From assembly GCA_963966185.1 (NCBI GenBank), contig CAWZYM010000089.1:372001-436000 (forward strand): 64,000 nt of DNA, read 5' to 3'. The position numbers and the translations under genes were made by a program. Below the pieces are notes generated by a model. That model was given only the letters and a program-made list of their open reading frames with translations, did not search any database and had not been told where the DNA came from. The stretch's first letter is position 1; the number at the start of each line of letters is the position of its first letter. Below are positions 1 through 54,215 of the stretch, piece after piece. The stretch is from Rhabditoides inermis (taxonomy: Eukaryota > Nematoda > Chromadorea > Rhabditida > Rhabditidae).

Positions 1-1042
1 TGTCGATCTTTACCGCCTTTCATCATTGTAAACCTGGTTTGTCCAACTTTACCAAGTTTTCATCCTTGTAAACCTGGTTTGTCCAACTTTACCGGCCTTT
101 CATCTTTGTAAACCTGGTTTGTCCAACTTTACCGGACTTTTTATCTTTGTAAACCTTGTTTGTCCAACTTTACCGGCCTTTCATCCTTGTAAACCTGGTT
201 TTTCCAACTTTACCGGCCTTTCAATCTTCTAAACCTGGTTTGTCCAACTTCACCGGCCTTTCATCCTTGTAAACCTGGTTTGTCCAACTCCACCGGCCTT
301 TCATCCTTTTAAATCTGGTTTGTCCAACTTTTACGGACTTTTCATCCTTGTAAACCTGGTTTGTCCAACTTTACCGGGTTTTTATCCTTGAAAGCCTGGT
401 TTGTCTAACTTTACCGGCATTTCATCCTTGTAAACCTAGTTTCTCCAACTTTACCGGGTTTTTATCCATGTTAAGCTGGTTTGTCCAACTTTACCAGGTT
501 TTCATCCATGTAAACCTGGTTTGTCGATCTTTACCGCCTTTCATCATTGTAAACCTGGTTTGTCCAACTTTACCAAGTTTTCATCCTTGTAAACCTGGTT
601 TGTCCAACTTTACCGGCCTTTCATCTTTGTAAACCTGGTTTGTCCAACTTTACCGGACTTTTTATCTTTGTAAACCTTGTTTGTCCAACTTTACCGGCCT
701 TTCATCCTTGTAAACCTGGTTTGTCCAACTTTACCGGCCTTTCAATCTTCTAAACCTGGTTTGTCCAACTTCACCGGCCTTTCATCCTTGTAAACCTGGT
801 TTGTCCAACTCCACCGGCCTTTCATCCTTTTAAATCTGGTTTGTCCAACTTTTACGGACTTTTCATCCTTGTAAACCTGGTTTGTCCAACTTTACCGGGT
901 TTTTATCCTTGAAAGCCTGGTTTGTCTAACTTTACCGGCATTTCATCCTTGTAAACCTAGTTTGTCCAATTTTACCGGGTTTTTATCCATGTTAAGCTGG
1001 TTTGTCCAACTTTACCAGGTTTTCATCCATGTAAACCTGGTT
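1..1042 (-). repeat. 13-monomer HOR, two copies of 521 bp
   Basis: TGTCGATCTTTACC marks the unit start at 1 and 522. Reading left to right the complements are m3, m2, m1, m21, m20, m19, m18, m17, m16, m7, m6, m5, m4. Predicted length is seven monomers of 279 bp plus six of 242 bp, which gives 521 bp as observed. Confidence 0.9.
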
Positions 1043-1206
1043 TGTCGAACTTTACCGCCTTTCATCCTTGTAAACCTGGTTTGTCCAACTTTACCGGCCT
1101 TTCATCTTTGTAAACCTGGTTTGTCCAACTTTACCGGCCTTTCATCCATGTAAACCTGGTTTGTCGAATTTTACCGGGTTTTCATCCATGTAAACCTGGT
1201 TTGTCC
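1..1206 (-). repeat. Orientation block 1, '-' arm
   Basis: Monomers read CCTGGTTTGTCC on the given strand. The block holds two tandem copies of the 13-monomer HOR (1-521 and 522-1042). It then runs through complements of m3, m1/m8, m25, m24 and the first bases of m23 before junction A. Compared with its duplicate at 2858-4103 it lacks one monomer (m2, AAGTTTTC type) near 1060-1100. Confidence 0.93.
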
Positions 1207-1264
1207 AGGATGAAAGGCGGTAAAGTTCGACAAACCAGGTTTACATGGATGAAAACCCGGTAAA
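1170..1264. repeat. Junction A inverted repeat (copy 1)
   Basis: The '-' to '+' switch, at 1206/1207: TTTGTCC joined to AGGATGAAAGG. The joint links the start of m23 (complement) to the middle of m3. Around it are perfect 36 bp inverted arms (1170-1205 and 1229-1264) with a 23 nt spacer. At most one base (A) is shared at the joint. Confidence 0.92.
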
Positions 1265-2327
1265 GTTGGACAAACCAGGTTAACATGGATAAAAACCCGG
1301 TAAAGTTGGACAAACTAGGTTTACAAGGATGAATTGCCGGTAAAGTTAGACAAACCAGGTTTTCAAAGATAAAAACCCGGTAAAGTTGGACAAACCAGGT
1401 TTACAAAGATGAAAGGCCGGTAAAGTTGGACAAACCAGGTTTACAAGGTTGAAAGGGCGGTAAAGTTGGACCGACCAGGTTCACAAGGATGAAAGGCCGG
1501 TGGAGTTGTACAAACCAGGTTTACAAGGATGAAAAGTCCGTAAAAGTTGGACAAACCAGGTTTACAAGGATGAAAGGCCGGTGGAGTGGGACAAACCAGG
1601 TTTACAAGGATGAAAGGCCGGTGAAGTTGGACAAACCAGGTTTAGAAGGTTGAAAGGCCGGTAAAGTTGGACAAACCAGGTTTACAAGAATGAAAGGCCG
1701 GTAAAGTTGTACAAACCAGGTTTACAAGGATGAAAAGTCCGTAAAAGTTGGACAAACCAGATTTACAAGGATGAAAGGCCGGTGGAGTTGGACAAACCAG
1801 GTTTACAAGGATGAAAGGCCGGTGAAGTTGGACAAACCAGGTTTAGAAGGTTGAAAGGCCGGTAAAGTTGGACAAACCAGGTTTACAAGGATGAAAGACC
1901 GGTAAAGTTGGATAAACCAGGTTTACAAAGATAAAAAGTCCGGTAAAGTTGGACAAACCAGGTTTACATTGATGAAAACCCGGTAAAATTCGACAAACCA
2001 GGTTTACATGGATGAAAGGACGGTAAAGTTGGACAAACCAGGTTTACATGGATGAAAACCCGGTAAAATTCGACAAACCAGGTTTACATGGATGAAAGGC
2101 CGGTAAAGTTGGACAAACCAGGTTTACAAAGATGAAAGGCCGGTAAAGTTGGACAAACCAGGTTTACAAGGATGAAAACTTGGTAAAGTTGGACAAACCA
2201 GGTTTACAAGGATGAAAGGCGGTAAAGTTCGACAAACCAGGTTTACATGGATGAAAACCTGGTAAAGTTCGACAAACCAGCTTAACATGGATAAAAACCC
2301 GGTAAAGTTGGACAAACTAGGTTTACA
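1207..2327 (+). repeat. Orientation block 2, '+' arm (1,121 bp)
   Basis: Starts in the middle of m3 at AGGATGAAAGGCGG. It runs in order m3 to m25, then m1, m2, m3, m4, m5, and stops inside m6 (CAAACTAGGTTTACA). It is therefore slightly more than one full 25-monomer HOR. The same 1,121 bp arm recurs at 4104-5224, 8612-9732 and 14808-15928. Confidence 0.92.
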
Positions 2328-2351
2328 ACCTGGTTTGTCCAACTTTACCGG
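2299..2351. repeat. Junction B hairpin (copy 1)
   Basis: The '+' to '-' switch, near 2327/2328: TAGGTTTAC-AA-CCTGG, with the two bases AA compatible with both sides. The site is a near-perfect palindrome: a 19 bp arm (2299-2317, complement 2333-2351), one T/G mismatch (2318 and 2332), then AGGTT (2319-2323) pairing with AACCT (2327-2331) around a 3 nt loop TAC. That is 24 pairs and one mismatch in 53 nt. Confidence 0.93.
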
Positions 2352-4103
2352 ACTTTTTATTTTTGTAAACCTGGTTTGTCCAACTTTACCGGCCTTTCAT
2401 CCTTGTAAACCTGGTTTGTCCAACTTTACCGGCCTTTCAACCTTCTAAACCTGGTTTGTCCAACTTCACCGGCCTTTCATCCTTGTAAACCTGGTTTGTC
2501 CAACTCCACCGGCCTTTCATCCTTTTAATTCTGGTTTGTCCAACTTTTACGGACTTTTCATCCTTGTAAACCTGGTTTGTCCAACTCCACCGGCCTTTCA
2601 TCCTTGTAAACCTGGTTGGTCCAACTTTACCGGCATTTCAACCTTGTAAACCTGGTTTGTCCAACTTTACCGGCCTTTCATCTTTATAAACCTGGTTTGT
2701 CCAACTTTACCGGGTTTTCATCCTTGAAAATCTGGTTTGTCTAACTCTACCGGCATTTCATCCTTGTAAACCTAGTTTGTCCAACTTTACCGGGTTTTTA
2801 TCCATGTTAACCTGGTTTGTCCAACTTTACCGGGTTTTCATCCATGTAAACCTGGTTTGTCGATCTTTACCGCCTTTCATCATTGTAAACCTGGTTTGTC
2901 CAACTTTACCAAGTTTTCATCCTTGTAAACCTGGTTTGTCCAACTTTACCGGCCTTTCATCTTTGTAAACCTGGTTTGTCCAACTTTACCGGACTTTTTA
3001 TCTTTGTAAACCTTGTTTGTCCAACTTTACCGGCCTTTCATCCTTGTAAACCTGGTTTGTCCAACTTTACCGGCCTTTCAATCTTCTAAACCTGGTTTGT
3101 CCAACTTCACCGGCCTTTCATCCTTGTAAACCTGGTTTGTCCAACTCCACCGGCCTTTCATCCTTTTAAATCTGGTTTGTCCAACTTTTACGGACTTTTC
3201 ATCCTTGTAAACCTGGTTTGTCCAACTTTACCGGGTTTTTATCCTTGAAAGCCTGGTTTGTCTAACTTTACCGGCATTTCATCCTTGTAAACCTAGTTTG
3301 TCCAACTTTACCGGGTTTTTATCCATGTTAAGCTGGTTTGTCCAACTTTACCAGGTTTTCATCCATGTAAACCTGGTTTGTCGATCTTTACCGCCTTTCA
3401 TCATTGTAAACCTGGTTTGTCCAACTTTACCAAGTTTTCATCCTTGTAAACCTGGTTTGTCCAACTTTACCGGCCTTTCATCTTTGTAAACCTGGTTTGT
3501 CCAACTTTACCGGACTTTTTATCTTTGTAAACCTTGTTTGTCCAACTTTACCGGCCTTTCATCCTTGTAAACCTGGTTTGTCCAACTTTACCGGCCTTTC
3601 AATCTTCTAAACCTGGTTTGTCCAACTTCACCGGCCTTTCATCCTTGTAAACCTGGTTTGTCCAACTCCACCGGCCTTTCATCCTTTTAAATCTGGTTTG
3701 TCCAACTTTTACGGACTTTTCATCCTTGTAAACCTGGTTTGTCCAACTTTACCGGGTTTTTATCCTTGAAAGCCTGGTTTGTCTAACTTTACCGGCATTT
3801 CATCCTTGTAAACCTAGTTTGTCCAATTTTACCGGGTTTTTATCCATGTTAAGCTGGTTTGTCCAACTTTACCAGGTTTTCATCCATGTAAACCTGGTTT
3901 GTCGAACTTTACCGCCTTTCATCCTTGTAAACCTGGTTTGTCCAACTTTACCAAGTTTTCATCCTTGTAAACCTGGTTTGTCCAACTTTACCGGCCTTTC
4001 ATCTTTGTAAACCTGGTTTGTCCAACTTTACCGGCCTTTCATCCATGTAAACCTGGTTTGTCGAATTTTACCGGGTTTTCATCCATGTAAACCTGGTTTG
4101 TCC
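2328..4103 (-). repeat. Orientation block 3, '-' arm (1,776 bp)
   Basis: Begins at junction B with the complement of m21, then m20 down to m16, then m12/m10-like, m9, m8, m7, m6, m5 and m4. Two 13-monomer HOR copies follow (2858-3378, 3379-3899), then m3, m2, m1, m25, m24 and a piece of m23 up to junction A. Confidence 0.92.
2858..3899 (-). repeat. 13-monomer HOR, two copies of 521 bp
   Basis: Copies at 2858-3378 and 3379-3899, same order as at 1-1042. The second copy is followed by m3 with TTTGTCGAAC instead of the TTTGTCGATC variant. Confidence 0.9.
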
Positions 4104-4161
4104 AGGATGAAAGGCGGTAAAGTTCGACAAACCAGGTTTACATGGATGAAAACCCGGTAAA
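4067..4161. repeat. Junction A inverted repeat (copy 2)
   Basis: Same joint sequence, arms and spacer as the copy at 1170-1264; the switch is at 4103/4104. Confidence 0.92.
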
Positions 4162-5224
4162 GTTGGACAAACCAGGTTAACATGGATAAAAACCCGGTAA
4201 AGTTGGACAAACTAGGTTTACAAGGATGAATTGCCGGTAAAGTTAGACAAACCAGGTTTTCAAAGATAAAAACCCGGTAAAGTTGGACAAACCAGGTTTA
4301 CAAAGATGAAAGGCCGGTAAAGTTGGACAAACCAGGTTTACAAGGTTGAAAGGGCGGTAAAGTTGGACCGACCAGGTTCACAAGGATGAAAGGCCGGTGG
4401 AGTTGTACAAACCAGGTTTACAAGGATGAAAAGTCCGTAAAAGTTGGACAAACCAGGTTTACAAGGATGAAAGGCCGGTGGAGTGGGACAAACCAGGTTT
4501 ACAAGGATGAAAGGCCGGTGAAGTTGGACAAACCAGGTTTAGAAGGTTGAAAGGCCGGTAAAGTTGGACAAACCAGGTTTACAAGAATGAAAGGCCGGTA
4601 AAGTTGTACAAACCAGGTTTACAAGGATGAAAAGTCCGTAAAAGTTGGACAAACCAGATTTACAAGGATGAAAGGCCGGTGGAGTTGGACAAACCAGGTT
4701 TACAAGGATGAAAGGCCGGTGAAGTTGGACAAACCAGGTTTAGAAGGTTGAAAGGCCGGTAAAGTTGGACAAACCAGGTTTACAAGGATGAAAGACCGGT
4801 AAAGTTGGATAAACCAGGTTTACAAAGATAAAAAGTCCGGTAAAGTTGGACAAACCAGGTTTACATTGATGAAAACCCGGTAAAATTCGACAAACCAGGT
4901 TTACATGGATGAAAGGACGGTAAAGTTGGACAAACCAGGTTTACATGGATGAAAACCCGGTAAAATTCGACAAACCAGGTTTACATGGATGAAAGGCCGG
5001 TAAAGTTGGACAAACCAGGTTTACAAAGATGAAAGGCCGGTAAAGTTGGACAAACCAGGTTTACAAGGATGAAAACTTGGTAAAGTTGGACAAACCAGGT
5101 TTACAAGGATGAAAGGCGGTAAAGTTCGACAAACCAGGTTTACATGGATGAAAACCTGGTAAAGTTCGACAAACCAGCTTAACATGGATAAAAACCCGGT
5201 AAAGTTGGACAAACTAGGTTTACA
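4104..5224 (+). repeat. Orientation block 4, '+' arm (1,121 bp)
   Basis: Same monomer order and length as 1207-2327, offset by 2,897 bp. No difference was noticed by eye. It ends at junction B. Confidence 0.92.
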
Positions 5225-5248
5225 ACCTGGTTTGTCCAACTTTACCGG
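5196..5248. repeat. Junction B hairpin (copy 2)
   Basis: Identical to the hairpin at 2299-2351, offset 2,897 bp; the switch is at 5224/5225. Confidence 0.93.
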
Positions 5249-6113
5249 ACTTTTTATTTTTGTAAACCTGGTTTGTCCAACTTTACCGGCCTTTCATCCT
5301 TGTAAACCTGGTTTGTCCAACTTTACCGGCCTTTCAACCTTCTAAACCTGGTTTGTCCAACTTCACCGGCCTTTCATCCTTGTAAACCTGGTTTGTCCAA
5401 CTCCACCGGCCTTTCATCCTTTTAATTCTGGTTTGTCCAACTTTTACGGACTTTTCATCCTTGTAAACCTGGTTTGTCCAACTCCACCGGCCTTTCATCC
5501 TTGTAAACCTGGTTGGTCCAACTTTACCGGCATTTCAACCTTGTAAACCTGGTTTGTCCAACTTTACCGGCCTTTCATCTTTATAAACCTGGTTTGTCCA
5601 ACTTTACCGGGTTTTCATCCTTGAAAATCTGGTTTGTCTAACTCTACCGGCATTTCATCCTTGTAAACCTAGTTTGTCCAACTTTACCGGGTTTTTATCC
5701 ATGTTAACCTGGTTTGTCCAACTTTACCGGGTTTTCATCCATGTAAACCTGTTTTGTCGAACTTTACCGGGTTTTCATCCATGTAAACCTGGTTTGTCCA
5801 ACTTTATCGGCCTTTCATCCGTGTAAACCTGGTTTGTCCTACTTTACCGGCCTTTCATCTTTGTAAACCTGGTTTGTCGAACTTTACCGGGTCCATGTAA
5901 ACCTGGCTTGTCCAACTTTATCGGCCTTTCATCCGTGTAAACCTGGTTTGTCCTACTTTACCGGGTTTTCATCCTTGTAAACCTGGTTTGTCCAACTTTA
6001 CCGGCCTTTCATCTTTGTAAACCTGGTTTGTCCAACTTTACCGGCCTTTCATCCATGTAAACCTGGTTTGTCGAATTTTACCGGGTTTTCATCCATGTAA
6101 ACCTGGTTTGTCC
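5225..6113 (-). repeat. Orientation block 5, '-' arm with 34 bp monomer cassette
   Basis: From junction B it repeats m21 down to m4 as in block 3. At about 5750 it leaves that order (CCTGTTTTGTCGAAC) and enters a cassette of unusual monomers at about 5755-5980, described separately. It closes with m1/m8, m25, m24 and junction A. Confidence 0.9.
5755..5980 (-). repeat. Cassette of odd monomers ('-' copy)
   Basis: Contains TTTATCGG (CG changed to CA on the other strand), TCATCCGTGT, TTTGTCCTACTTT and the 34 bp monomer CCGGGTCCATGT. The same group of variants occurs in '+' orientation at about 47.7, 48.5, 53.4, 54.2, 56.8, 59.1 and 60.2 kb. The cassette has therefore moved or been copied between the two halves of the array. 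Confidence 0.82.
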
Positions 6114-6171
6114 AGGATGAAAGGCGGTAAAGTTCGACAAACCAGGTTTACATGGATGAAAACCCGGTAAA
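6077..6171. repeat. Junction A inverted repeat (copy 3)
   Basis: Same joint, switch at 6113/6114. Here the '-' arm before it comes from the 34 bp-monomer cassette, yet the last two monomers and the joint are unchanged. Confidence 0.92.
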
Positions 6172-6994
6172 GTTGGACAAACCAGGTTAACATGGATAAA
6201 AACCCGGTAAAGTTGGACAAACTAGGTTTACAAGGATGAATTGCCGGTAAAGTTAGACAAACCAGGTTTTCAAAGATAAAAACCCGGTAAAGTTGGACAA
6301 ACCAGGTTTACAAAGATGAAAGGCCGGTAAAGTTGGACAAACCAGGTTTACAAGGTTGAAAGGGCGGTAAAGTTGGACCGACCAGGTTCACAAGGATGAA
6401 AGGCCGGTGGAGTTGTACAAACCAGGTTTACAAGGATGAAAAGTCCGTAAAAGTTGGACAAACCAGGTTTACAAGGATGAAAGGCCGGTGGAGTGGGACA
6501 AACCAGGTTTACAAGGATGAAAGGCCGGTGAAGTTGGACAAACCAGGTTTAGAAGGTTGAAAGGCCGGTAAAGTTGGACAAACCAGGTTTACAAGAATGA
6601 AAGACCGGTAAAGTTGTACAAACCAGGTTTACAAGGATGAAAAGTCCGTAAAAGTTGGACAAACCAGATTTACAAGGATGAAAGGCCGGTGGAGTTGGAC
6701 AAACCAGGTTTACAAGGATGAAAGGCCGGTGAAGTTGGACAAACCAGGTTTAGAAGGTTGAAAGGCCGGTAAAGTTGGACAAACCAGGTTTACAAGGATG
6801 AAAGACCGGTAAAGTTGGATAAACCAGGTTTACAAAGATAAAAAGTCCGGTAAAGTTGGACAAACCAGGTTTACAAGGATGAAAGGCGGTAAAGTTCGAC
6901 AAACCAGGTTTACATGGATGAAAACCTGGTAAAGTTGGACAAACCAGCTTAACATGGATAAAAACCCGGTAAAGTTGGACAAACTAGGTTTACA
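6114..6994 (+). repeat. Orientation block 6, shortened '+' arm (881 bp)
   Basis: Same start as the 1,121 bp arms but exactly 240 bp shorter. After m21 (near 6840) the order jumps straight to m3, so m22-m25, m1 and m2 are missing. It still ends at an intact junction B. The loss is a whole number of monomers, as expected from recombination in register. Confidence 0.88.
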
Positions 6995-7018
6995 ACCTGG
7001 TTTGTCCAACTTTACCGG
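6966..7018. repeat. Junction B hairpin (copy 3)
   Basis: Identical palindrome; the switch is at 6994/6995. It follows the shortened '+' arm, so the 240 bp loss upstream did not touch the joint. Confidence 0.92.
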
Positions 7019-8611
7019 ACTTTTTATTTTTGTAAACCTGGTTTGTCCAACTTTACCGGCCTTTCAACCTTCTAAACCTGGTTTGTCCAACTTCACCGGC
7101 CTTTCATCCTTGTAAACCTGGTTTGTCCAACTCCACCGGCCTTTCATCCTTTTAATTCTGGTTTGTCCAACTTTTACGGACTTTTCATCCTTGTAAACCT
7201 GGTTTGTCCAACTCCACCGGCCTTTCATCCTTGTAAACCTGGTTGGTCCAACTTTACCGGCATTTCAACCTTGTAAACCTGGTTTGTCCAACTTTACCGG
7301 CCTTTCATCTTTATAAACCTGGTTTGTCCAACTTTACCGGGTTTTCATCCTTGAAAATCTGGTTTGTCTAACTCTACCGGCATTTCATCCTTGTAAACCT
7401 AGTTTGTCCAACTTTACCGGGTTTTTATCCATGTTAACCTGGTTTGTCCAACTTTACCGGGTTTTCATCCATGTAAACCTGTTTTGTCGAACTTTACCGG
7501 GTTTTCATCCATGTAAACCTGGTTTGTCCAACTTTACCGGGTTTTCATCCATGTAAACCTGGTTTGTCGATCTTTACCGCCTTTCATCATTGTAAACCTG
7601 GTTTGTCCAACTTTACCAAGTTTTCATCCTTGTAAACCTGGTTTGTCCAACTTTACCGGCCTTTCATCTTTGTAAACCTGGTTTGTCCAACTTTACCGGA
7701 CTTTTTATCTTTGTAAACCTTGTTTGTCCAACTTTACCGGCCTTTCATCCTTGTAAACCTGGTTTGTCCAACTTTACCGGCCTTTCAATCTTCTAAACCT
7801 GGTTTGTCCAACTTCACCGGCCTTTCATCCTTGTAAACCTGGTTTGTCCAACTCCACCGGCCTTTCATCCTTTTAAATCTGGTTTGTCCAACTTTTACGG
7901 ACTTTTCATCCTTGTAAACCTGGTTTGTCCAACTTTACCGGGTTTTTATCCTTGAAAGCCTGGTTTGTCTAACTTTACCGGCATTTCATCCTTGTAAACC
8001 TAGTTTGTCCAACTTTACCGGGTTTTTATCCATGTTAAGCTGGTTTGTCCAACTTTACCAGGTTTTCATCCATGTAAACCTGGTTTGTCGATCTTTACCG
8101 CCTTTCATCATTGTAAACCTGGTTTGTCCAACTTTACCAAGTTTTCATCCTTGTAAACCTGGTTTGTCCAACTTTACCGGCCTTTCATCTTTGTAAACCT
8201 GGTTTGTCCAACTTTACCGGACTTTTTATCTTTGTAAACCATGTTTGTCCAACTTTACCGGCCTTTCATCCTTGTAAACCTGGTTTGTCCAACTTTACCG
8301 GCCTTTCAATCTTCTAAACATGGTTTGTCCAACTTCACCGGCCTTTCATCCTTGTAAACCTGGTTTGTCCAACTCCACCGGCCTTTCATCCTTTTAAATC
8401 TGGTTTGTCCAACTTTTACGGACTTTTCATCCTTGTAAACCTGGTTTGTCCAACTTTACCGGGTTTTTATCCTTGAAAGCCTGGTTTGTCTAACTTTACC
8501 GGCATTTCATCTTTGTAAACCTGGTTTGTCCAACTTTACCGGCCTTTCATCCATGTAAACCTGGTTTGTCGAATTTTACCGGGTTTTCATCCATGTAAAC
8601 CTGGTTTGTCC
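6995..8611 (-). repeat. Orientation block 7, '-' arm
   Basis: Begins at B with m21, then m19 (m20 is skipped here), and descends to m4. It enters the 13-monomer HOR at 7565-8085 and a second, incomplete copy from 8086. At about 8512 it jumps to the m1, m25, m24 tail before junction A. Most of the block is duplicated at 12992-14508 with an offset of 5,997 bp. Confidence 0.9.
7565..8511 (-). repeat. 13-monomer HOR, one and a part copies
   Basis: Full copy 7565-8085, second copy from 8086 broken at about 8512, within the m6-equivalent. Confidence 0.86.
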
Positions 8612-8669
8612 AGGATGAAAGGCGGTAAAGTTCGACAAACCAGGTTTACATGGATGAAAACCCGGTAAA
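8575..8669. repeat. Junction A inverted repeat (copy 4)
   Basis: Same joint and arms; the switch is at 8611/8612. Confidence 0.92.
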
Positions 8670-9732
8670 GTTGGACAAACCAGGTTAACATGGATAAAAA
8701 CCCGGTAAAGTTGGACAAACTAGGTTTACAAGGATGAATTGCCGGTAAAGTTAGACAAACCAGGTTTTCAAAGATAAAAACCCGGTAAAGTTGGACAAAC
8801 CAGGTTTACAAAGATGAAAGGCCGGTAAAGTTGGACAAACCAGGTTTACAAGGTTGAAAGGGCGGTAAAGTTGGACCGACCAGGTTCACAAGGATGAAAG
8901 GCCGGTGGAGTTGTACAAACCAGGTTTACAAGGATGAAAAGTCCGTAAAAGTTGGACAAACCAGGTTTACAAGGATGAAAGGCCGGTGGAGTGGGACAAA
9001 CCAGGTTTACAAGGATGAAAGGCCGGTGAAGTTGGACAAACCAGGTTTAGAAGGTTGAAAGGCCGGTAAAGTTGGACAAACCAGGTTTACAAGAATGAAA
9101 GGCCGGTAAAGTTGTACAAACCAGGTTTACAAGGATGAAAAGTCCGTAAAAGTTGGACAAACCAGATTTACAAGGATGAAAGGCCGGTGGAGTTGGACAA
9201 ACCAGGTTTACAAGGATGAAAGGCCGGTGAAGTTGGACAAACCAGGTTTAGAAGGTTGAAAGGCCGGTAAAGTTGGACAAACCAGGTTTACAAGGATGAA
9301 AGACCGGTAAAGTTGGATAAACCAGGTTTACAAAGATAAAAAGTCCGGTAAAGTTGGACAAACCAGGTTTACATTGATGAAAACCCGGTAAAATTCGACA
9401 AACCAGGTTTACATGGATGAAAGGACGGTAAAGTTGGACAAACCAGGTTTACATGGATGAAAACCCGGTAAAATTCGACAAACCAGGTTTACATGGATGA
9501 AAGGCCGGTAAAGTTGGACAAACCAGGTTTACAAAGATGAAAGGCCGGTAAAGTTGGACAAACCAGGTTTACAAGGATGAAAACTTGGTAAAGTTGGACA
9601 AACCAGGTTTACAAGGATGAAAGGCGGTAAAGTTCGACAAACCAGGTTTACATGGATGAAAACCTGGTAAAGTTCGACAAACCAGCTTAACATGGATAAA
9701 AACCCGGTAAAGTTGGACAAACTAGGTTTACA
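8612..9732 (+). repeat. Orientation block 8, '+' arm (1,121 bp)
   Basis: Same monomer order as 1207-2327, ending at junction B. It is duplicated at 14808-15928 with an offset of 6,196 bp. Confidence 0.92.
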
Positions 9733-9756
9733 ACCTGGTTTGTCCAACTTTACCGG
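9704..9756. repeat. Junction B hairpin (copy 4)
   Basis: Identical palindrome; the switch is at 9732/9733. Confidence 0.93.
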
Positions 9757-10930
9757 ACTTTTTATTTTTGTAAACCTGGTTTGTCCAACTTTACCGGCCT
9801 TTCATCCTTGTAAACCTGGTTTGTCCAACTTTACCGGCCTTTCAACCTTCTAAACCTGGTTTGTCCAACTTCACCGGCCTTTCATCCTTGTAAACCTGGT
9901 TTGTCCAACTCCACCGGCCTTTCATCCTTTTAATTCTGGTTTGTCCAACTTTTACGGACTTTTCATCCTTGTAAACCTGGTTTGTCCAACTTTACCGGCC
10001 TTTCATCTTTGTAAACCTGGTTTGTCCAACTTTACCGGCCTTTCATCCATGTAAACCTGGTTTGTCGAATTTTACCGGGTTTTCATCCATGTAAACCTGG
10101 TTTGTCCAACTTTACCGTCCTTTCATCCATGTAAACCTGGTTTGTCGAATTTTACCGGGTTTTCATCAATGTAAACCTGGTTTGTCCAACTTTACCGGAC
10201 TTTTTATCTTTGTAAACCTGGTTTATCCAACTTTACCGGTCTTTCATCCTTGTAAACCTGGTTTGTCCAACTTTACCGGCCTTTCAACCTTCTAAACCTG
10301 GTTTGTCCAACTTCACCGGCCTTTCATCCTTGTAAACCTGGTTTGTCCAACTCCACCGGCCTTTCATCCTTGTAAATCTGGTTTGTCCAACTTTTACGGA
10401 CTTTTCATCCTTGTAAACCTGGTTTGTACAACTTTACCGGCCTTTCATTCTTGTAAACCTGGTTTGTCCAACTTTACCGGCCTTTCAACCTTCTAAACCT
10501 GGTTTGTCCAACTTCACCGGCCTTTCATCCTTGTAAACCTGGTTTGTCCCACTCCACCGGCCTTTCATCCTTGTAAACCTGGTTTGTCCAACTTTTACGG
10601 ACTTTTCATCCTTGTAAACCTGGTTTGTACAACTCCACCGGCCTTTCATCCTTGTGAACCTGGTCGGTCCAACTTTACCGCCCTTTCAACCTTGTAAACC
10701 TGGTTTGTCCAACTTTACCGGCCTTTCATCTTTGTAAACCTGGTTTGTCCAACTTTACCGGGTTTTTATCTTTGAAAACCTGGTTTGTCTAACTTTACCG
10801 GCAATTCATCCTTGTAAACCTAGTTTGTCCAACTTTACCGGGTTTTTATCCATGTTAACCTGGTTTGTCCAACTTTACCGGGTTTTCATCCATGTAAACC
10901 TGGTTTGTCGAACTTTACCGCCTTTCATCC
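9733..10930 (-). repeat. Orientation block 9, '-' arm ending in a flipped junction A
   Basis: Starts at B with m21 to m16. At about 9990 it changes to the reverse complement of the '+' arm seen in blocks 2, 4 and 8: m1/m8, m25, m24, m23, m22/m24-like, m21, and so on down to m3. It ends at CCTTTCATCC/TGGACAAACC, which is junction A read on the other strand. From about 9990 this is an inverted copy of a '+' arm. Confidence 0.88.
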
Positions 10931-10968
10931 TGGACAAACCAGGTTTACATGGATGAAAACCCGGTAAA
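10874..10968. repeat. Junction A inverted repeat, flipped copy
   Basis: The exact reverse complement of the other A joints: CCTTTCATCC joined to TGGACAAACC at 10930/10931. A switch from '-' to '+' remains '-' to '+' when flipped, so orientation alone hides this. The monomer identities on each side show that the surrounding segment was inverted. Confidence 0.9.
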
Positions 10969-12748
10969 ATTCGACAAACCAGGTTTACATGGATGAAAGG
11001 CCGGTAAAGTTGGACAAACCAGGTTTACAAAGATGAAAGGCCGGTAAAGTTGGACAAACCAGGTTTACAAGGATGAAAACTTGGTAAAGTTGGACAAACC
11101 AGGTTTACAAGGATGAAAGGCGGTAAAGTTCGACAAACCAGGTTTACATGGATGAAAACCTGGTAAAGTTGGACAAACCAGCTTAACATGGATAAAAACC
11201 CGGTAAAATTGGACAAACTAGGTTTACAAGGATGAAATGCCGGTAAAGTTAGACAAACCAGGCTTTCAAGGATAAAAACCCGGTAAAGTTGGACAAACCA
11301 GGTTTACAAGGATGAAAAGTCCGTAAAAGTTGGACAAACCAGATTTAAAAGGATGAAAGGCCGGTGGAGTTGGACAAACCAGGTTTACAAGGATGAAAGG
11401 CCGGTGAAGTTGGACAAACCATGTTTAGAAGATTGAAAGGCCGGTAAAGTTGGACAAACCAGGTTTACAAGGATGAAAGGCCGGTAAAGTTGGACAAACA
11501 TGGTTTACAAAGATAAAAAGTCCGGTAAAGTTGGACAAACCAGGTTTACAAAGATGAAAGGCCGGTAAAGTTGGACAAACCAGGTTTACAAGGATGAAAA
11601 CTTGGTAAAGTTGGACAAACCAGGTTTACAATGATGAAAGGCGGTAAAGATCGACAAACCAGGTTTACATGGATGAAAACCTGGTAAAGTTGGACAAACC
11701 AGCTTAACATGGATAAAAACCCGGTAAAGTTGGACAAACTAGGTTTACAAGGATGAAATGCCGGTAAAGTTAGACAAACCAGGCTTTCAAGGATAAAAAC
11801 CCGGTAAAGTTGGACAAACCAGGTTTACAAGGATGAAAAGTCCGTAAAAGTTGGACAAACCAGATTTAAAAGGATGAAAGGCCGGTGGAGTTGGACAAAC
11901 CAGGTTTACAAGGATGAAAGGCCGGTGAAGTTGGACAAACCAGGTTTAGAAGATTGAAAGGCCGGTAAAGTTGGACAAACCAGGTTTACAAGGATGAAAG
12001 GCCGGTAAAGTTGGACAAACAAGGTTTACAAAGATAAAAAGTCCGGTAAAGTTGGACAAACCAGGTTTACAAAGATGAAAGGCCGGTAAAGTTGGACAAA
12101 CCAGGTTTACAAGGATGAAAACTTGGTAAAGTTGGACAAACCAGGTTTACAATGATGAAAGGCGGTAAAGATCGACAAACCAGGTTTACATGGATGAAAA
12201 CCCGGTAAAGTTGGACAAACCAGGTTTACATGGATGAAAACCCGGTAAAGTTCGACAAAACAGGTTTACATGGATGAAAACCCGGTAAAGTTGGACAAAC
12301 CAGGTTAACATGGATAAAAACCCGGTAAAGTTGGACAAACTAGGTTTACAAGGATGAAATGCCGGTAGAGTTAGACAAACCAGATTTTCAAGGATGAAAA
12401 CCCGGTAAAGTTGGACAAACCAGGTTTATAAAGATGAAAGGCCGGTAAAGTTGGACAAACCAGGTTTACAAGGTTGAAATGCCGGTAAAGTTGGACCAAC
12501 CAGGTTTACAAGGATGAAAGGCCGGTGGAGTTGGACAAACCAGGTTTACAAGGATGAAAAGTCCGTAAAAGTTGGACAAACCAGAATTAAAAGGATGAAA
12601 GGCCGGTGGAGTTGGACAAACCAGGTTTACAAGGATGAAAGGCCGGTGAAGTTGGACAAACCAGGTTTAGAAGGTTGAAAGGCCGGTAAAGTTGGACAAA
12701 CCAGGTTTACAAAAATAAAAAGTCCGGTAAAGTTGGACAAACCAGGTT
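10931..12748 (+). repeat. Orientation block 10, flipped counterpart of a '-' arm
   Basis: Begins with m24, m25 and m1, then two 13-monomer HOR copies in '+' orientation (11015-11535, 11536-12056). Then come m1, m2, m3, m4-like monomers, m5, m6, m7, m8, m9 and so on to m21, ending at a flipped junction B. Read backwards this is the '-' arm of blocks 3 and 13. Confidence 0.88.
11015..12056 (+). repeat. 13-monomer HOR, two copies in '+' orientation
   Basis: Copies at 11015-11535 and 11536-12056, 521 bp apart: m1 to m7 then m16 to m21. They lie inside the flipped segment, which is why they read in the opposite direction to the other 13-monomer units. Confidence 0.9.
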
Positions 12749-12776
12749 GTAAACCTAGTTTGTCCAACTTTACCGG
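12724..12776. repeat. Junction B hairpin, flipped copy
   Basis: Reverse complement of the other B joints (AGGTTGTAAACCTAG at 12745-12759), switch at 12748/12749. Together with the flipped A joint at 10930 it shows that a segment of roughly 2.7 kb was inverted as a block. Confidence 0.9.
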
Positions 12777-12794
12777 GTTTTTATCCATCCTTGT
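12749..12794 (-). repeat. Orientation block 11, 46 bp '-' sliver
   Basis: Only about one monomer: the complement of m6 start and m5 (CCTAGTTTGTCC, then CCGGGTTTTTATCC), followed by ATCCTTGTA of another unit. It lies between a flipped junction B and the unique joint C, and is probably the remnant left at the edge of the inverted segment. Confidence 0.82.
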
Positions 12795-12800
12795 ATGAAA
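12780..12800. other. Joint C, unique orientation joint and duplication edge
   Basis: TTTATCC, then ATCCTTGTA, then TGAAAGACCGG: '-' sequence meets '+' sequence at about 12794/12795, with a few extra '-' bases in between. It occurs once. Its right side is exactly where the 5,997 bp-offset duplication of 6798 onward begins, so it marks the insertion edge of that copy. Confidence 0.8.
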
Positions 12801-12991
12801 GACCGGTAAAGTTGGATAAACCAGGTTTACAAAGATAAAAAGTCCGGTAAAGTTGGACAAACCAGGTTTACAAGGATGAAAGGCGGTAAAGTTCGACAAA
12901 CCAGGTTTACATGGATGAAAACCTGGTAAAGTTGGACAAACCAGCTTAACATGGATAAAAACCCGGTAAAGTTGGACAAACTAGGTTTACA
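12795..12991 (+). repeat. Orientation block 12, '+' stub
   Basis: m20 from TGAAAGACCGG, then m21, m3, m4, m5 and the start of m6, ending at junction B. It equals 6798-6994 at an offset of 5,997 bp, including the m21-to-m3 jump. Its left end is therefore the left end of a duplicated segment. Confidence 0.87.
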
Positions 12992-13015
12992 ACCTGGTTT
13001 GTCCAACTTTACCGG
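12963..13015. repeat. Junction B hairpin (copy 6)
   Basis: Identical palindrome in the usual orientation, only about 240 bp from the flipped copy; the switch is at 12991/12992. Confidence 0.92.
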
Positions 13016-14807
13016 ACTTTTTATTTTTGTAAACCTGGTTTGTCCAACTTTACCGGCCTTTCAACCTTCTAAACCTGGTTTGTCCAACTTCACCGGCCTT
13101 TCATCCTTGTAAACCTGGTTTGTCCAACTCCACCGGCCTTTCATCCTTTTAATTCTGGTTTGTCCAACTTTTACGGACTTTTCATCCTTGTAAACCTGGT
13201 TTGTCCAACTCCACCGGCCTTTCATCCTTGTAAACCTGGTTGGTCCAACTTTACCGGCATTTCAACCTTGTAAACCTGGTTTGTCCAACTTTACCGGCCT
13301 TTCATCTTTATAAACCTGGTTTGTCCAACTTTACCGGGTTTTCATCCTTGAAAATCTGGTTTGTCTAACTCTACCGGCATTTCATCCTTGTAAACCTAGT
13401 TTGTCCAACTTTACCGGGTTTTTATCCATGTTAACCTGGTTTGTCCAACTTTACCGGGTTTTCATCCATGTAAACCTGTTTTGTCGAACTTTACCGGGTT
13501 TTCATCCATGTAAACCTGGTTTGTCCAACTTTACCGGGTTTTCATCCATGTAAACCTGGTTTGTCGATCTTTACCGCCTTTCATCATTGTAAACCTGGTT
13601 TGTCCAACTTTACCAAGTTTTCATCCTTGTAAACCTGGTTTGTCCAACTTTACCGGCCTTTCATCTTTGTAAACCTGGTTTGTCCAACTTTACCGGACTT
13701 TTTATCTTTGTAAACCTTGTTTGTCCAACTTTACCGGCCTTTCATCCTTGTAAACCTGGTTTGTCCAACTTTACCGGCCTTTCAATCTTCTAAACCTGGT
13801 TTGTCCAACTTCACCGGCCTTTCATCCTTGTAAACCTGGTTTGTCCAACTCCACCGGCCTTTCATCCTTTTAAATCTGGTTTGTCCAACTTTTACGGACT
13901 TTTCATCCTTGTAAACCTGGTTTGTCCAACTTTACCGGGTTTTTATCCTTGAAAGCCTGGTTTGTCTAACTTTACCGGCATTTCATCCTTGTAAACCTAG
14001 TTTGTCCAACTTTACCGGGTTTTTATCCATGTTAAGCTGGTTTGTCCAACTTTACCAGGTTTTCATCCATGTAAACCTGGTTTGTCGATCTTTACCGCCT
14101 TTCATCATTGTAAACCTGGTTTGTCCAACTTTACCAAGTTTTCATCCTTGTAAACCTGGTTTGTCCAACTTTACCGGCCTTTCATCTTTGTAAACCTGGT
14201 TTGTCCAACTTTACCGGACTTTTTATCTTTGTAAACCATGTTTGTCCAACTTTACCGGCCTTTCATCCTTGTAAACCTGGTTTGTCCAACTTTACCGGCC
14301 TTTCAATCTTCTAAACATGGTTTGTCCAACTTCACCGGCCTTTCATCCTTGTAAACCTGGTTTGTCCAACTCCACCGGCCTTTCATCCTTTTAAATCTGG
14401 TTTGTCCAACTTTTACGGACTTTTCATCCTTGTAAACCTGGTTTGTCCAACTTTACCGGGTTTTTATCCTTGAAAGCCTGGTTTGTCTAACTTTACCGGC
14501 ATTTCATCCTTGTAAACCTAGTTTGTCCAATTTTACCGGGTTTTTATCCATGTTAAGCTGGTTTGTCCAACTTTACCAGGTTTTCATCCATGTAAACCTG
14601 GTTTGTCGAACTTTACCGCCTTTCATCCTTGTAAACCTGGTTTGTCCAACTTTACCAAGTTTTCATCCTTGTAAACCTGGTTTGTCCAACTTTACCGGCC
14701 TTTCATCTTTGTAAACCTGGTTTGTCCAACTTTACCGGCCTTTCATCCATGTAAACCTGGTTTGTCGAATTTTACCGGGTTTTCATCCATGTAAACCTGG
14801 TTTGTCC
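12992..14807 (-). repeat. Orientation block 13, '-' arm (1,816 bp)
   Basis: Matches 6995-8511 at offset 5,997 up to about 14508. After that it follows block 3 (3805-4103 at offset 10,704). It contains two 13-monomer HOR copies at 13562-14082 and 14083-14603 and ends at junction A. It is a patchwork of two earlier blocks. Confidence 0.9.
13562..14603 (-). repeat. 13-monomer HOR, two copies of 521 bp
   Basis: Copies at 13562-14082 and 14083-14603. The second copy carries CCATGTTTG and ACATGGTTTG variants also seen at 8239 and 8318. Confidence 0.88.
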
Positions 14808-14865
14808 AGGATGAAAGGCGGTAAAGTTCGACAAACCAGGTTTACATGGATGAAAACCCGGTAAA
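14771..14865. repeat. Junction A inverted repeat (copy 6)
   Basis: Same joint and arms as copy 1; the switch is at 14807/14808. Confidence 0.92.
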
Positions 14866-15928
14866 GTTGGACAAACCAGGTTAACATGGATAAAAACCCG
14901 GTAAAGTTGGACAAACTAGGTTTACAAGGATGAATTGCCGGTAAAGTTAGACAAACCAGGTTTTCAAAGATAAAAACCCGGTAAAGTTGGACAAACCAGG
15001 TTTACAAAGATGAAAGGCCGGTAAAGTTGGACAAACCAGGTTTACAAGGTTGAAAGGGCGGTAAAGTTGGACCGACCAGGTTCACAAGGATGAAAGGCCG
15101 GTGGAGTTGTACAAACCAGGTTTACAAGGATGAAAAGTCCGTAAAAGTTGGACAAACCAGGTTTACAAGGATGAAAGGCCGGTGGAGTGGGACAAACCAG
15201 GTTTACAAGGATGAAAGGCCGGTGAAGTTGGACAAACCAGGTTTAGAAGGTTGAAAGGCCGGTAAAGTTGGACAAACCAGGTTTACAAGAATGAAAGGCC
15301 GGTAAAGTTGTACAAACCAGGTTTACAAGGATGAAAAGTCCGTAAAAGTTGGACAAACCAGATTTACAAGGATGAAAGGCCGGTGGAGTTGGACAAACCA
15401 GGTTTACAAGGATGAAAGGCCGGTGAAGTTGGACAAACCAGGTTTAGAAGGTTGAAAGGCCGGTAAAGTTGGACAAACCAGGTTTACAAGGATGAAAGAC
15501 CGGTAAAGTTGGATAAACCAGGTTTACAAAGATAAAAAGTCCGGTAAAGTTGGACAAACCAGGTTTACATTGATGAAAACCCGGTAAAATTCGACAAACC
15601 AGGTTTACATGGATGAAAGGACGGTAAAGTTGGACAAACCAGGTTTACATGGATGAAAACCCGGTAAAATTCGACAAACCAGGTTTACATGGATGAAAGG
15701 CCGGTAAAGTTGGACAAACCAGGTTTACAAAGATGAAAGGCCGGTAAAGTTGGACAAACCAGGTTTACAAGGATGAAAACTTGGTAAAGTTGGACAAACC
15801 AGGTTTACAAGGATGAAAGGCGGTAAAGTTCGACAAACCAGGTTTACATGGATGAAAACCTGGTAAAGTTCGACAAACCAGCTTAACATGGATAAAAACC
15901 CGGTAAAGTTGGACAAACTAGGTTTACA
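14808..15928 (+). repeat. Orientation block 14, '+' arm (1,121 bp)
   Basis: Fourth copy of the full-length '+' arm (m3 to m25, then m1 to m6 start). It matches 4104-5224 at offset 10,704 and 8612-9732 at offset 6,196. Confidence 0.92.
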
Positions 15929-15952
15929 ACCTGGTTTGTCCAACTTTACCGG
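15900..15952. repeat. Junction B hairpin (copy 7)
   Basis: Identical palindrome; the switch is at 15928/15929. Confidence 0.93.
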
Positions 15953-17747
15953 ACTTTTTATTTTTGTAAACCTGGTTTGTCCAACTTTACCGGCCTTTCA
16001 TCCTTGTAAACCTGGTTTGTCCAACTTTACCGGCCTTTCAACCTTCTAAACCTGGTTTGTCCAACTTCACCGGCCTTTCATCCTTGTAAACCTGGTTTGT
16101 CCAACTCCACCGGCCTTTCATCCTTTTAATTCTGGTTTGTCCAACTTTTACGGACTTTTCATCCTTGTAAACCTGGTTTGTCCAACTCCACCGGCCTTTC
16201 ATCCTTGTAAACCTGGTTGGTCCAACTTTACCGGCCTTTCATCCATGTAAACCTGGTTTGTCGAATTTTACCGGGTTTTCATCCATGTAAACCTGGTTTG
16301 TCCAACTTTACCGTCCTTTCATCCATGTAAACCTGGTTTGTCGAATTTTACCGGGTTTTCATCAATGTAAACCTGGTTTGTCCAACTTTACCGGACTTTT
16401 TATCTTTGTAAACCTGGTTTATCCAACTTTACCGGTCTTTCATCCTTGTAAACCTGGTTTGTCCAACTTTACCGGCCTTTCAACCTTCTAAACCTGGTTT
16501 GTCCAACTTCACCGGCCTTTCATCCTTGTAAACCTGGTTTGTCCAACTCCACCGGCCTTTCATCCTTGTAAATCTGGTTTGTCCAACTTTTACGGACTTT
16601 TCATCCTTGTAAACCTGGTTTGTACAACTTTACCGGCCTTTCATTCTTGTAAACCTGGTTTGTCCAACTTTACCGGCCTTTCAACCTTCTAAACCTGGTT
16701 TGTCCAACTTCACCGGCCTTTCATCCTTGTAAACCTGGTTTGTCCCACTCCACCGGCCTTTCATCCTTGTAAACCTGGTTTGTCCAACTTTTACGGACTT
16801 TTCATCCTTGTAAACCTGGTTTGTACAACTCCACCGGCCTTTCATCCTTGTGAACCTGGTCGGTCCAACTTTACCGCCCTTTCAACCTTGTAAACCTGGT
16901 TTGTCCAACTTTACCGGCCTTTCATCTTTGTAAACCTGGTTTGTCCAACTTTACCGGGTTTTTATCTTTGAAAACCTGGTTTGTCTAACTTTACCGGCAA
17001 TTCATCCTTGTAAACCTAGTTTGTCCAACTTTACCGGGTTTTTATCCATGTTAACCTGGTTTGTCCAACTTTACCAAGTTTTCATCCTTGTAAACCTGGT
17101 TTGTCCAACTTTACCGGCCTTTCATCTTTGTAAACCTGGTTTGTCCAACTTTACCGGACTTTTTATCTTTGTAAACCTTGTTTGTCCAACTTTACCGGCC
17201 TTTCATCCTTGTAAACCTGGTTTGTCCAACTTTACCGGCCTTTCAATCTTCTAAACCTGGTTTGTCCAACTTCACCGGCCTTTCATCCTTGTAAACCTGG
17301 TTTGTCCAACTCCACCGGCCTTTCATCCTTTTAAATCTGGTTTGTCCAACTTTTACGGACTTTTCATCCTTGTAAACCTGGTTTGTCCAACTTTACCGGG
17401 TTTTTATCCTTGAAAGCCTGGTTTGTCTAACTTTACCGGCATTTCATCCTTGTAAACCTAGTTTGTCCAACTTTACCGGGTTTTTATCCATGTTAAGCTG
17501 GTTTGTCCAACTTTACCAGGTTTTCATCCATGTAAACCTGGTTTGTCGAACTTTACCGCCTTTCATCCTTGTAAACCTGGTTTGTCCAACTTTACCAAGT
17601 TTTCATCCTTGTAAACCTGGTTTGTCCAACTTTACCGGCCTTTCATTTTTGTAAACCTGGTTTGTCCAACTTTACCGGCCTTTCATCCATGTAAACCTGG
17701 TTTGTCGAATTTTACCGGGTTTTCATCCATGTAAACCTGGTTTGTCC
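15929..17747 (-). repeat. Orientation block 15, last '-' arm
   Basis: Begins at B. To about 17056 it follows 9733-10860 at offset 6,196, including the rare TTTTCATCAATG variant (16357, matching 10161). Two or so monomers near 16177-16250 differ from 9981-10050 without changing the offset. From about 17060 it switches to a 13-monomer-HOR-type order and closes with m25, m24 and junction A. Confidence 0.89.
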
Positions 17748-17805
17748 AGGATGAAAGGCGGTAAAGTTCGACAAACCAGGTTTACATGGATGAAAACCCG
17801 GTAAA
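17711..17805. repeat. Junction A inverted repeat (copy 7, last switch)
   Basis: Same joint, switch at 17747/17748. It opens the 46 kb unidirectional part. The '+' side follows m3, m4, m5, m6, m7 and then leaves the order of the 1,121 bp arms. Confidence 0.92.
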
Positions 17806-17820
17806 GTTGGACAAACCAGG

Positions 17821-18660
17821 TTAACATGGATAAAAACCCGGTAAAGTTGGACAAACTAGGTTTACAAGGATGAATTGCCGGTAAAGTTAGACAAACCAGG
17901 TTTTCAAGGATAAAAACCCGGTAAAGTTGGACAAACCAGGTTTACAAAGATGAAAAGTCCGTAAAAGTTGGACAAACCATATTTAAAAGGATGAAAGGCC
18001 GGTGGAGTTGGACAAACCAGGTTTACAAGGATGAAAGGCCGGTGAAGTTGGACAAACCAGATTTAGAAGGTTGAAAGGCCGGTAAAGTTGGACAAACCAG
18101 GTTTACAAGGATGAAAGGCCGGTAAAGTTGGACAAACAAGGTTTACAAAGATAAAAAGTCCGGTAAAGTTGGACAAACCAGGTTTACATTGATGAAAACC
18201 CGGTAAAATTCGACAAACCAGGTTTACATGGATGAAAGGACGGAAGAGTTGGACAAACCAGGTTTTCAAGGATGAAAGGCCGGTAAAATTGGACAAACCA
18301 GGTTAACATGGATAAAAACCCGGTAAAGTTGGACAAACTAGGTTTACAAGGATGAATTGCCGGTAAAGTTAGACAAACCAGGTTTTCAAGGATAAAAACC
18401 CGGTAAAGTTGGACAAACCAGGTTTACAAAGATGAAAAGTCCGTAAAAGTTGGACAAACCATATTTAAAAGGATGAAAGGCCGGTGGAGTTGGACAAACC
18501 AGGTTTACAAGGATGAAAGGCCGGTGAAGTTGGACAAACCAGATTTAGAAGGTTGAAAGGCCGGTAAAGTTGGACAAACCAGGTTTACAAGGATGAAAGG
18601 CCGGTAAAGTTGGACAAACAAGGTTTACAAAGATAAAAAGTCCGGTAAAGTTGGACAAAC
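17821..18660 (+). repeat. 482 bp local tandem duplication
   Basis: TTAACATGGATAAAAACCC starts at 17821 and again at 18303. Twelve monomers repeat with the same private variants (CCATATTTAAAAGG, CAAACAAGG). The second copy stops at about 18660, where AAGGTTG replaces CATTGATG. Confidence 0.82.
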
Positions 18661-18662
18661 CA

Positions 18663-21500: not shown

Positions 21501-23689
21501 GTAAAGTTGGACAAACCAGGTTTACATTGATGAAAACCCGGTAAAATTCGACAAACCAGGTTTACATGGATGAAAGGACGGTAAAGTTGGACAAACCAGG
21601 TTTACATGGATGAAAACCCGGTAAAATTCGACAAACCAGGTTTACATGGATGAAAGGCCGGTAAAGTTGAACAAACCAGGTTTACAAAGATGAAAGGCCG
21701 GTAAAGTTGGACAAACCAGGTTTACAAGGATGAAAACTTGGTAAAGTTGGACAAACCAGGTTTACAAGGATGAAAGGCGGTAAAGTTCGACAAACCAGGT
21801 TTACATGGATGAAAACCTGGTAAAGTTGGACAAACCAGCTTAACATGGATAAAAACCCGGTAAAGTTGGACAAACTAGGTTTACAAGGATGAAATGCCGG
21901 TAAAGTTAGACAAACCAGGTTTTCAAGGATAAAAACCCGGTAAAGTTGGACAAACCAGGTTTACAAGGATGAAAAGTCCGTAAAAGTTGGACAAACCAGA
22001 TTTAAAAGGATGAAAGGCCGGTGGAGTTGGACAAACCAGGTTTACAAGGATGAAAGGCCGGTGAAGTTGGACAAACCAGGTTTAGAAGGTTGAAAGGCCG
22101 GTAAAGTTGGACAAACCAGGTTTACAAGGATGAAAACCCGGTAAAGTTGGACAAACTAGGTTTACAAGAATGAAAGGCCGGTAAAGTTGTACAAACCAGG
22201 TTTACAAGGATGAAAAGTCCGTAAAAGTTGGACAAACCAGATTTACAAGGATGAAAGGCCGGTGGAGTTGGACAAACCAGGTTTACAAGGATGAAAGGCC
22301 GGTGAAGTTGGACAAACCAGGTTTAGAAGGTTGAAAGGCCGGTAAAGTTGGACAAACCAGGTTTACAAGGATGAAAGACCGGTAAAGTTGGACAAACCAG
22401 GTTTACAAAGATAAAAAGTCCGGTAAAGTTGGACAAACCAGGTTTACATTGATGAAAACCCGGTAAAATTCGACAAACCAGGTTTACATGGATGAAAGGA
22501 CGGTAAAGTTGGACAAACCAGGTTTACATGGATGAAAACCCGGTAAAATTCGACAAACCAGGTTTACATGGATGAAAGGCCGGTAAAGTTGGACAAACCA
22601 GGTTTACAAAGATGAAAGGCCGGTAAAGTTGGACAAATCAGGTTTACAAGGATGAAAACTTGGTAAAGTTGGACAAACCAGGTTTACAAGGATGAAAGGC
22701 GGTAAAGTTCGACAAACCAGGTTTACATGGATGAAAACCTGGTAAAGTTGGACAAACCAGCTTAACATGGATAAAAACCCGGTAAAGTTGGACAAACTAG
22801 GTTTACAAGGATGAAATGCCGGTAAAGTTAGACAAACCAGATTTTCAAGGATAAAAACCCGGTAAAGTTGGACAAACCAGGTTTACAAGGATGAAAAGTC
22901 CGTAAAAGTTGGACAAACCAGATTTAAAAGGATGAAAGGCCGGTTGAGTTGGACAAACCAGGTTTACAAGGATGAAAGGCCGGTGAAGTTGGACAAACCA
23001 GGTTTAGAAGGTTGAAAGGCCGGTAAAGTTGGACAAACCAGGTTTACAAGGATGAAAGGCCGGTAAAGTTGGACAAACAAGGTTTACAAAGATAAAAAGT
23101 CCGGTAAAGTTGGACAAACCAGGTTTACATTGATGAAAACCCGGTAAAATTCGACAAACCAGGTTTACATGGATGAAAGGACGGAAGAGTTGGACAGACC
23201 AGGTTTTCATGGATGAAAGGCCGGTAAAATTGGACAAACCAGGTTAACATGGATAAAAACCCGGTAAAGTTGGACAAACTAGGTTTACAAGGATGAATTG
23301 CCGGTAAAGTTAGACAAACCAGGTTTACAAGAATGAAAGGCCGGTAAAGTTGTACAAACCAGGTTTACAAAGATGAAAGGCCGGTGGAGTTGTACAAACC
23401 AGGTTTACAAGGATGAAAAGTCCGTAAAAGTTGGACAAACCAGGTTTACAAGGATGAAAGGCCGGTGGAGTGGGACAAACCAGGTTTACAAGGATGAAAG
23501 GCCGGTGAAGTTGGACAAACCAGGTTTAGAAGGTTGAAAGGCCGGTAAAGTTGGACAAACCAGGTTTACAAGAATGAAAGGCCGGTAAAGTTGTACAAAC
23601 CAGGTTCACAAGGATGAAAAGTCCGTAAAAGTTGGACAAACCAAATTTACAAGGATGAAAGGCCGGTGGAGTTGGACAAACCAGGTTTA

Positions 23690-47700: not shown

Positions 47701-47743
47701 GGACAAACCAGGTTTACAAAGATGAAAGGCCGGTAAAGTTGGA

Positions 47744-47777
47744 CAAGCCAGCTTTACATGGACCCGGTAAAGTTCGA
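47744..47777 (+). repeat. 34 bp deletion monomer
   Basis: CAAGCCAGC at the start, then ACATGGACCCGG and TTCGA. Compared with m22/m24, six bases (TGAAAA) are missing. It is followed by AAAGTAGGAC, ACACGGATG and CCGATAAAG monomers, the same cassette as at 5755-5980. Confidence 0.85.
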
Positions 47778-48498: not shown

Positions 48499-48532
48499 CA
48501 AGCCAGGTTTACATGGACCCGGTAAAGTTCGA
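48499..48532 (+). repeat. 34 bp deletion monomer
   Basis: Same six-base loss, with CAAGCCAGG. Two CAAGCC monomers stand in a row before the cassette. Confidence 0.84.
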
Positions 48533-53426: not shown

Positions 53427-53460
53427 CAAGCCAGCTTTACATGGACCCGGTAAAGTTCGA
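53427..53460 (+). repeat. 34 bp deletion monomer
   Basis: Duplicate of 47744-47777 within D4, keeping the CCAGCTTT change. Confidence 0.84.
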
Positions 53461-54181: not shown

Positions 54182-54215
54182 CAAGCCAGGTTTACATGGA
54201 CCCGGTAAAGTTCGA
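54182..54215 (+). repeat. 34 bp deletion monomer
   Basis: Duplicate of 48499-48532 within D4. Confidence 0.84.

Follow-up and report, generated by a model that had tools for sequence, protein, structure and literature searches.

Polarity switches at the border of a single-locus nematode satellite: rare inversion joints and their probable passive copying

The 64,000-bp stretch analysed here (the window; positions 372001-436000 of contig CAWZYM010000089.1, hereafter C89) opens at what is probably the unstable edge of a single-locus satellite, where a few rare joins between sequences of opposite polarity were each made once and then copied passively. The whole window consists of satellite S2, which has a 40-bp monomer. 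Its first 17.7 kb (window 1..17748, both strands) are the right-hand part of a polarity-switch zone (C89:289.66-389.76 kb) in which S2 is found in both polarities, broken by a second satellite, S1, and by a dispersed-repeat fragment; window 17749..64000 (plus strand) is the switch-free start of a 97-kb array (C89:389.75-486.98 kb) that is plus throughout, with 0 switches along its length. The zone itself contains 35 runs of 49 to 5,957 bp, to which the 97-kb run is added. The zone is the interface of S2 with S1, and the window holds only 15 of its 30 switches; in this respect the frame of the original prediction is not supported.

The genome searched comprises 172.6 Mb in 599 contigs, and C89 was read over 222-506 kb and over 3 kb at either contig end. 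The exact 40-base S2 monomer occurs 112 times genome-wide (59 plus, 53 minus), and the part of C89 that was read carries 59 plus and 53 minus exact monomers; all 112 are thus at this locus, indicating that S2 in this form is a single-locus satellite, with diverged copies possible elsewhere. Self-identity of the 97-kb array is 0.78 at a lag of 40, 0.583 at 201 and 0.441 at 1002, the long-lag values being lowered by small indels because the comparison was ungapped; by this ungapped comparison no longer lag stands out strongly beyond the monomer steps. The window contains no match to an RNA family at gathering score and no open reading frame of at least 250 aa. A shortened-monomer variant with a 59-bp period is present at window 63845-63995 and recurs farther right in C89.

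A strand scan located 15 switches in the window, ending with one near 17.74 kb, and exact searches assigned them to seven copies of joint A (TTTGTCCAGGATGAAAGG; 6 plus, 1 minus), seven copies of joint B (TTTACAACCTGGTTTG; 6 plus, 1 minus) and a single joint C, confirming the prediction of fifteen switches of this composition in the first 17.75 kb. Joint A has 0 copies in shuffled sequence. The search for joint B in the window returned 54 matches; the 47 beyond the exact copies are ordinary monomers, each with two mismatches. When C89:289.5-487.2 kb was scanned more finely, 30 switches were found, every one within 80 bp of a joint, and each of the 30 joints has a switch, giving a one-to-one correspondence with 17 A, 12 B and 1 C. 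Genome-wide, the 17 copies of A (16 plus, 1 minus) and the 12 copies of B (8 plus, 4 minus) are all on C89.

From left to right, the window passes from minus to plus at joint A (copy 1, 1200..1217, plus strand) and from plus to minus at joint B (copy 1, 2322..2337, plus strand). Further plus-strand copies follow at 4097..4114 (A, copy 2), 5219..5234 (B, copy 2), 6107..6124 (A, copy 3), 6989..7004 (B, copy 3), 8605..8622 (A, copy 4) and 9727..9742 (B, copy 4); the plus run before B copy 3 is 881 bp long, 240 bp or six monomers below the usual 1,121 bp. The fifth copies of both joints are inverted (minus strand): A at 10921..10938, the sole inverted A among 17 genome-wide, and B at 12738..12753, one of four inverted B among 12. 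Joint C (minus to plus; 12788..12797) occurs once, beside a perfect inverted repeat with arms of 2,829 bp and 0 mismatches. The left arm of this repeat, on whose inner boundary C lies, is window 9960..12788 (C89:381960-384788, plus); the right arm is window 12951..15779 (C89:384951-387779, minus), and a 162-bp spacer separates the two. Inverted pairs 1,500 bp or more in length number eight, and each has one arm inside C89:381960-384788. Plus-strand copies then resume at 12986..13001 (B, copy 6), 14801..14818 (A, copy 6), 15923..15938 (B, copy 7) and 17741..17758 (A, copy 7), the last opening into the 97-kb array.

All 17 copies of joint A have in common a left flank of 92 bp with 0 mismatches and a right flank of 78 bp with 0 mismatches save in the copy at C89:297509, which differs by two; the 12 copies of joint B are identical over 35 bp to the left and 19 bp to the right (0 mismatches), and in 11 of them the left flank is shared over at least 102 bp. 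The description of each joint as the same to the base thus holds for the cores and near flanks, apart from the two right-flank mismatches of that A copy. Pairs of A copies vary widely in the length of flank that they share (as far as 2.9 kb leftward, and rightward beyond the comparison limit of 3 kb), and A copies carry copy-specific mismatches. Because flanks are shared among copies, each joint looks like one event multiplied. For A and B alike, the 97-kb plus array contains parents of either side at 97-99.5% identity over 200 bp, and the 60-200 bp flanks of both joints match array monomers at 97-100%, without diverged joint-specific subunits. Against the best parents, the overlap is 1 bp at A and 2 bp at B, and both joins are out of monomer phase; from these features we infer a molecular route, which fits end joining or microhomology-scale template switching and not exchange between aligned monomers. 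When a fold-back origin of B was considered, 120-bp tiles gave matches to its own arm and general matches alike.

Within the zone and array, S2 forms six blocks, with as much as 29.5 kb of other sequence lying between them. The four outer blocks (starting at 289.7, 294.7, 305.8 and 338.5 kb) have one A each and lack B; the fifth (346.2-354.2 kb) has two A and one B; and the sixth, which runs from 355.2 kb across the window and on to 487 kb, has eleven A, eleven B and C. The presence of A in 6/6 blocks, B in 2/6 and C in 1/6 suggests that A formed first, B later and C last. The first five blocks end rightward at the same base in the dispersed-repeat fragment, followed by S1; on the S1-to-S2 side, the S2 sequence is the same in five of the six, which show two S1 variants, and one differs.

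The original prediction held that two inversions had occurred once each and that composite units containing both joints, in an array with a higher-order repeat (HOR) unit, were then amplified. One-time origin and later amplification are in keeping with the shared flanks and with abundant near-identical duplications of at least 1.5 kb, but a regular HOR unit is not supported, given the spacing of the joints and the four of six blocks that lack B. A-to-A spacing in the window ranges from 2,010 to 3,880 bp, minus runs from B(+) to A(+) in the whole zone range from 889 to 3,094 bp, and the array has no strong lag. Nor are A and B a matched pair, as A stands without B in those four blocks and 4 of the 12 B are flipped. 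Between A(+) and B(+) the plus run measures 1,121 bp in six of seven cases and 881 bp in the other; three A runs close instead at a flipped B, 955 bp on. In C89:232-496 kb there are 194 direct pairs with a length of 1,500 bp or more, a count that includes the long plus array and S1; among the 71 listed pairs that touch the zone or its border, some being confined to S1, the number of mismatches is 0-10 in 69 and 26 and 33 in the other two.

Differences in run length mostly correspond to whole monomers: 2.0, 12.0 and 13.99 monomers for B(-)-to-A runs, and 5.99 for A-to-B runs. For B(+)-to-A(+) runs, 15 of 20 differences are within 0.15 of an integer number of monomers and all 20 within 0.21, with differences of 10 bp or less omitted; these 20 values derive from seven intervals and so are not independent. 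Among S1-to-A runs, compared without the sixth block, which has another edge, 4 of 10 differences are off whole monomers by 0.17-0.32. Later length changes are thus mostly in register, whereas the joins at A and B are not, as expected if the former arose by unequal exchange or slippage.

Comparison of the two polarities gave a mixed picture. The plus segment enclosed by the window's first A and first B, 1,118 bp long, is 99.2% identical to the 97-kb array, on the same strand and over its full length, and at best 90.5% identical to the inverted minus blocks on the left. The minus segment at window 1-1206 is best matched by minus blocks (97.5%, versus 92.6% for the inverted plus array), as is that at window 2329-4103 (95.4% versus 92.3%). 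In 400-bp tiles, the minus runs are a mosaic, some tiles being 99-100% identical to the inverted plus array and others matching minus blocks only. A division of S2 into two deeply separate plus and minus subfamilies was dropped on account of this mosaic, in which many tiles match the inverted plus array at 99-100%. Together with the 4 of 12 flipped B, the mosaic implies exchange between opposite polarities that blurs the history of the locus.

These observations can be assembled into a probable course of events, beginning with at least three rare rearrangements (A, then B, then C) that would have joined S2 monomers of opposite polarity, those at A and B out of monomer register through end joining or microhomology-scale template switching. 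Copying of joints A and B would then have been passive: whole S2 blocks would have been duplicated segmentally along with adjoining S1, and direct copies of the composite would have undergone unequal exchange in register. Provided that the assembly is correct, neutral edge dynamics of a satellite are the most likely explanation; the absence of a selected function, like the order of events, is part of what we infer.

Among other explanations, an assembly artefact, in which mis-joined or fold-back reads within the repeat made the switches, is unlikely, although joint C would be the most exposed to it. In its favour, the contig starts inside S1, the inverted repeat at C has 0 mismatches over its 2,829 bp, and one tandem duplicate, 4,234 bp in length (C89:361306-365539 versus 365521-369754), has 0 mismatches as well. 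Such errors accord poorly with 17 A and 12 B whose shared flanks differ in length and whose copies bear mismatches of their own, with joint-bearing blocks as much as 29.5 kb of non-S2 sequence apart, with the 162-bp spacer of the inverted repeat, or with a 97-kb array on the same contig that has no switch. About as improbable is a true composite HOR, a single unit with both joints amplified in tandem, for which the 1,121-bp plus run in 6/7 cases and the one 4.2-kb tandem pair with 0 mismatches could be adduced; the irregular A-to-A spacing, the flipped B that closes three A runs after 955 bp, and the five blocks that close in the repeat fragment and S1 rather than in B all oppose it, and segmental duplication with unequal exchange explains irregular spacing better than a regular unit does.

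Selection for dyad symmetry, kept for a hairpin or loop role in chromatin, kinetochore or replication as suggested for Tribolium, is likewise improbable. Arms across the 16 of 17 A that were tested are 86-90% complementary over 306-681 bp, and those across the eight B(+) among the 12 B are 85-86% complementary in three, 95-96% in four and 100% in one, compared with 52-56% at six random places of the plus array; the joints are conserved, and similar cassettes are described in T. madens. However, any polarity switch in a satellite yields complementarity, joints and flanks are conserved together as recent copying predicts, and the system is confined to a single locus. Least probable is inversion driven by a transposon or recombinase. 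A dispersed repeat, 282 bp or longer (C89:293664-293945), adjoins S2 at one fixed base in 5/5 blocks and is perhaps a transposon end, but its copies on C89 are at S2/S1 edges or within S1, none being at A, B or C, and the parental overlap at A and B is just 1-2 bp. Genome-wide, 40 matches to this repeat were scored among 101 candidates; inverted pairs 5.8-6.1 kb apart on contigs C23, C269, C270 and C323 suggest that the element is possibly a DNA transposon's terminal repeat.

Satellite S1, to the left of the zone, has periods of 31, 44, 75 and 212 bp and a palindromic core, TGTCCGGACA. C89 starts within S1, a 38-base word of which is seen in the first 41 kb among the matches listed; S1 was seen at C89:1-3000 and 222001-289660, occupying C89:222-289 kb throughout. 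The word occurs 652 times in the genome, always forward, with all of the 100 listed places on C89, and 180 times forward and 0 times in reverse in C89:222-506 kb; flipped S1 was absent wherever it was counted. To the right of S2, C89:486981-487400 is another tandem repeat (CCTAGCTTATTGGCTGCATTTTCC...), so that three tandem repeats meet on this contig. Farther right are open frames and simple repeats; one open frame has 14 protein matches, two of them with PF00078. Comparison of sequence with solved structures gave two weak matches only (E 0.05 and 0.34). The other end of C89 (1204765-1207764) is a low-complexity repeat of type CCTCTTCCTCTCCCTGTAT, and the 1,200 bases inspected at either contig end showed no telomere repeat. 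The genome contains 42 matches to PF01060, a family typical of nematodes, and 12 to SL2 RNA, a pointer to the rhabditine branch; each is matched in 0 of 14 control genomes, and a nematode origin is likely on these grounds.

Among the nematode titles listed in a literature search of limited coverage, none concerned polarity-switching satellites. The locus may perhaps be an instance, beyond Tribolium, of a macro-dyad satellite cassette system, its host being a nematode of a lineage that we take to be holocentric; we advance this reading tentatively. If it is correct, the locus would show that cassettes with fixed joints and repeated borders to a second satellite can form at the edges of arrays through copying only, without any centromeric role, and the six blocks on one contig would preserve the stages (A only, A and B, A with B and C). 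Homogenisation usually erases the order of joint formation in satellites; at this locus the order is readable.

Satellites described in holocentric nematodes are species-specific and scattered in the genome (PMC3634726), and Nippostrongylus has very long complex tandem repeats (PMC5765664); the word "inverted" does not occur in the main text of either report. Somatic elimination of satellites occurs in some nematodes (PMC13370393). Human alpha-satellite HOR arrays are also tandem satellites with higher-order structure but are described as having few inversions within HOR units and as typically maintaining their orientation, unlike S2 (PMC9859433). Maize CEN10 is described as having undergone microhomology-mediated recombination and an inversion that split the CentC array, but this was one inversion, in contrast to the joints copied many times here (PMC8997354).

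Judged by likeness of architecture, the closest precedent is the set of inversion sites and cassettes of T. madens, where inverted sub-arrays join at conserved inversion sites, a minor satellite lies in cassettes with conserved transition zones, macro-dyads are said to be documented only in Tribolium, and macro-dyad symmetry is proposed to matter for (peri)centromeric chromatin (PMC13081366). Beyond T. madens, "macro-dyad" together with "satellite" found only work on holocentric Edessa bugs, in a passage of the reference list. The suggestion that fixed inversion joints are unusual must accordingly be set beside the Tribolium precedent. The two systems have in common kilobase-scale sub-arrays of opposite polarity in one satellite; few inversion joints, each near-identical among copies; and satellite cassettes within another satellite, with repeated edges and variable monomer number (PMC13081366). 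They differ in that T. madens has thousands of copies at putative (peri)centromeres of all chromosomes, versus 30 joints at one locus here; in that its joints have diverged subunits, versus ordinary monomers here; and in that, here, S1 is not seen inverted and a dispersed-repeat fragment lies at the edge (PMC13081366). The locus behaves as a Tribolium cassette does, but joint-specific diverged subunits and genome-wide occurrence were not seen, and we therefore do not class it as a member of the Tribolium type; it offers a neutral counter-model to the (peri)centromeric role proposed for macro-dyads. The pattern has a precedent, but the nematode setting and readable stages of this locus suit it well to testing whether a centromere is required for symmetry of this kind.
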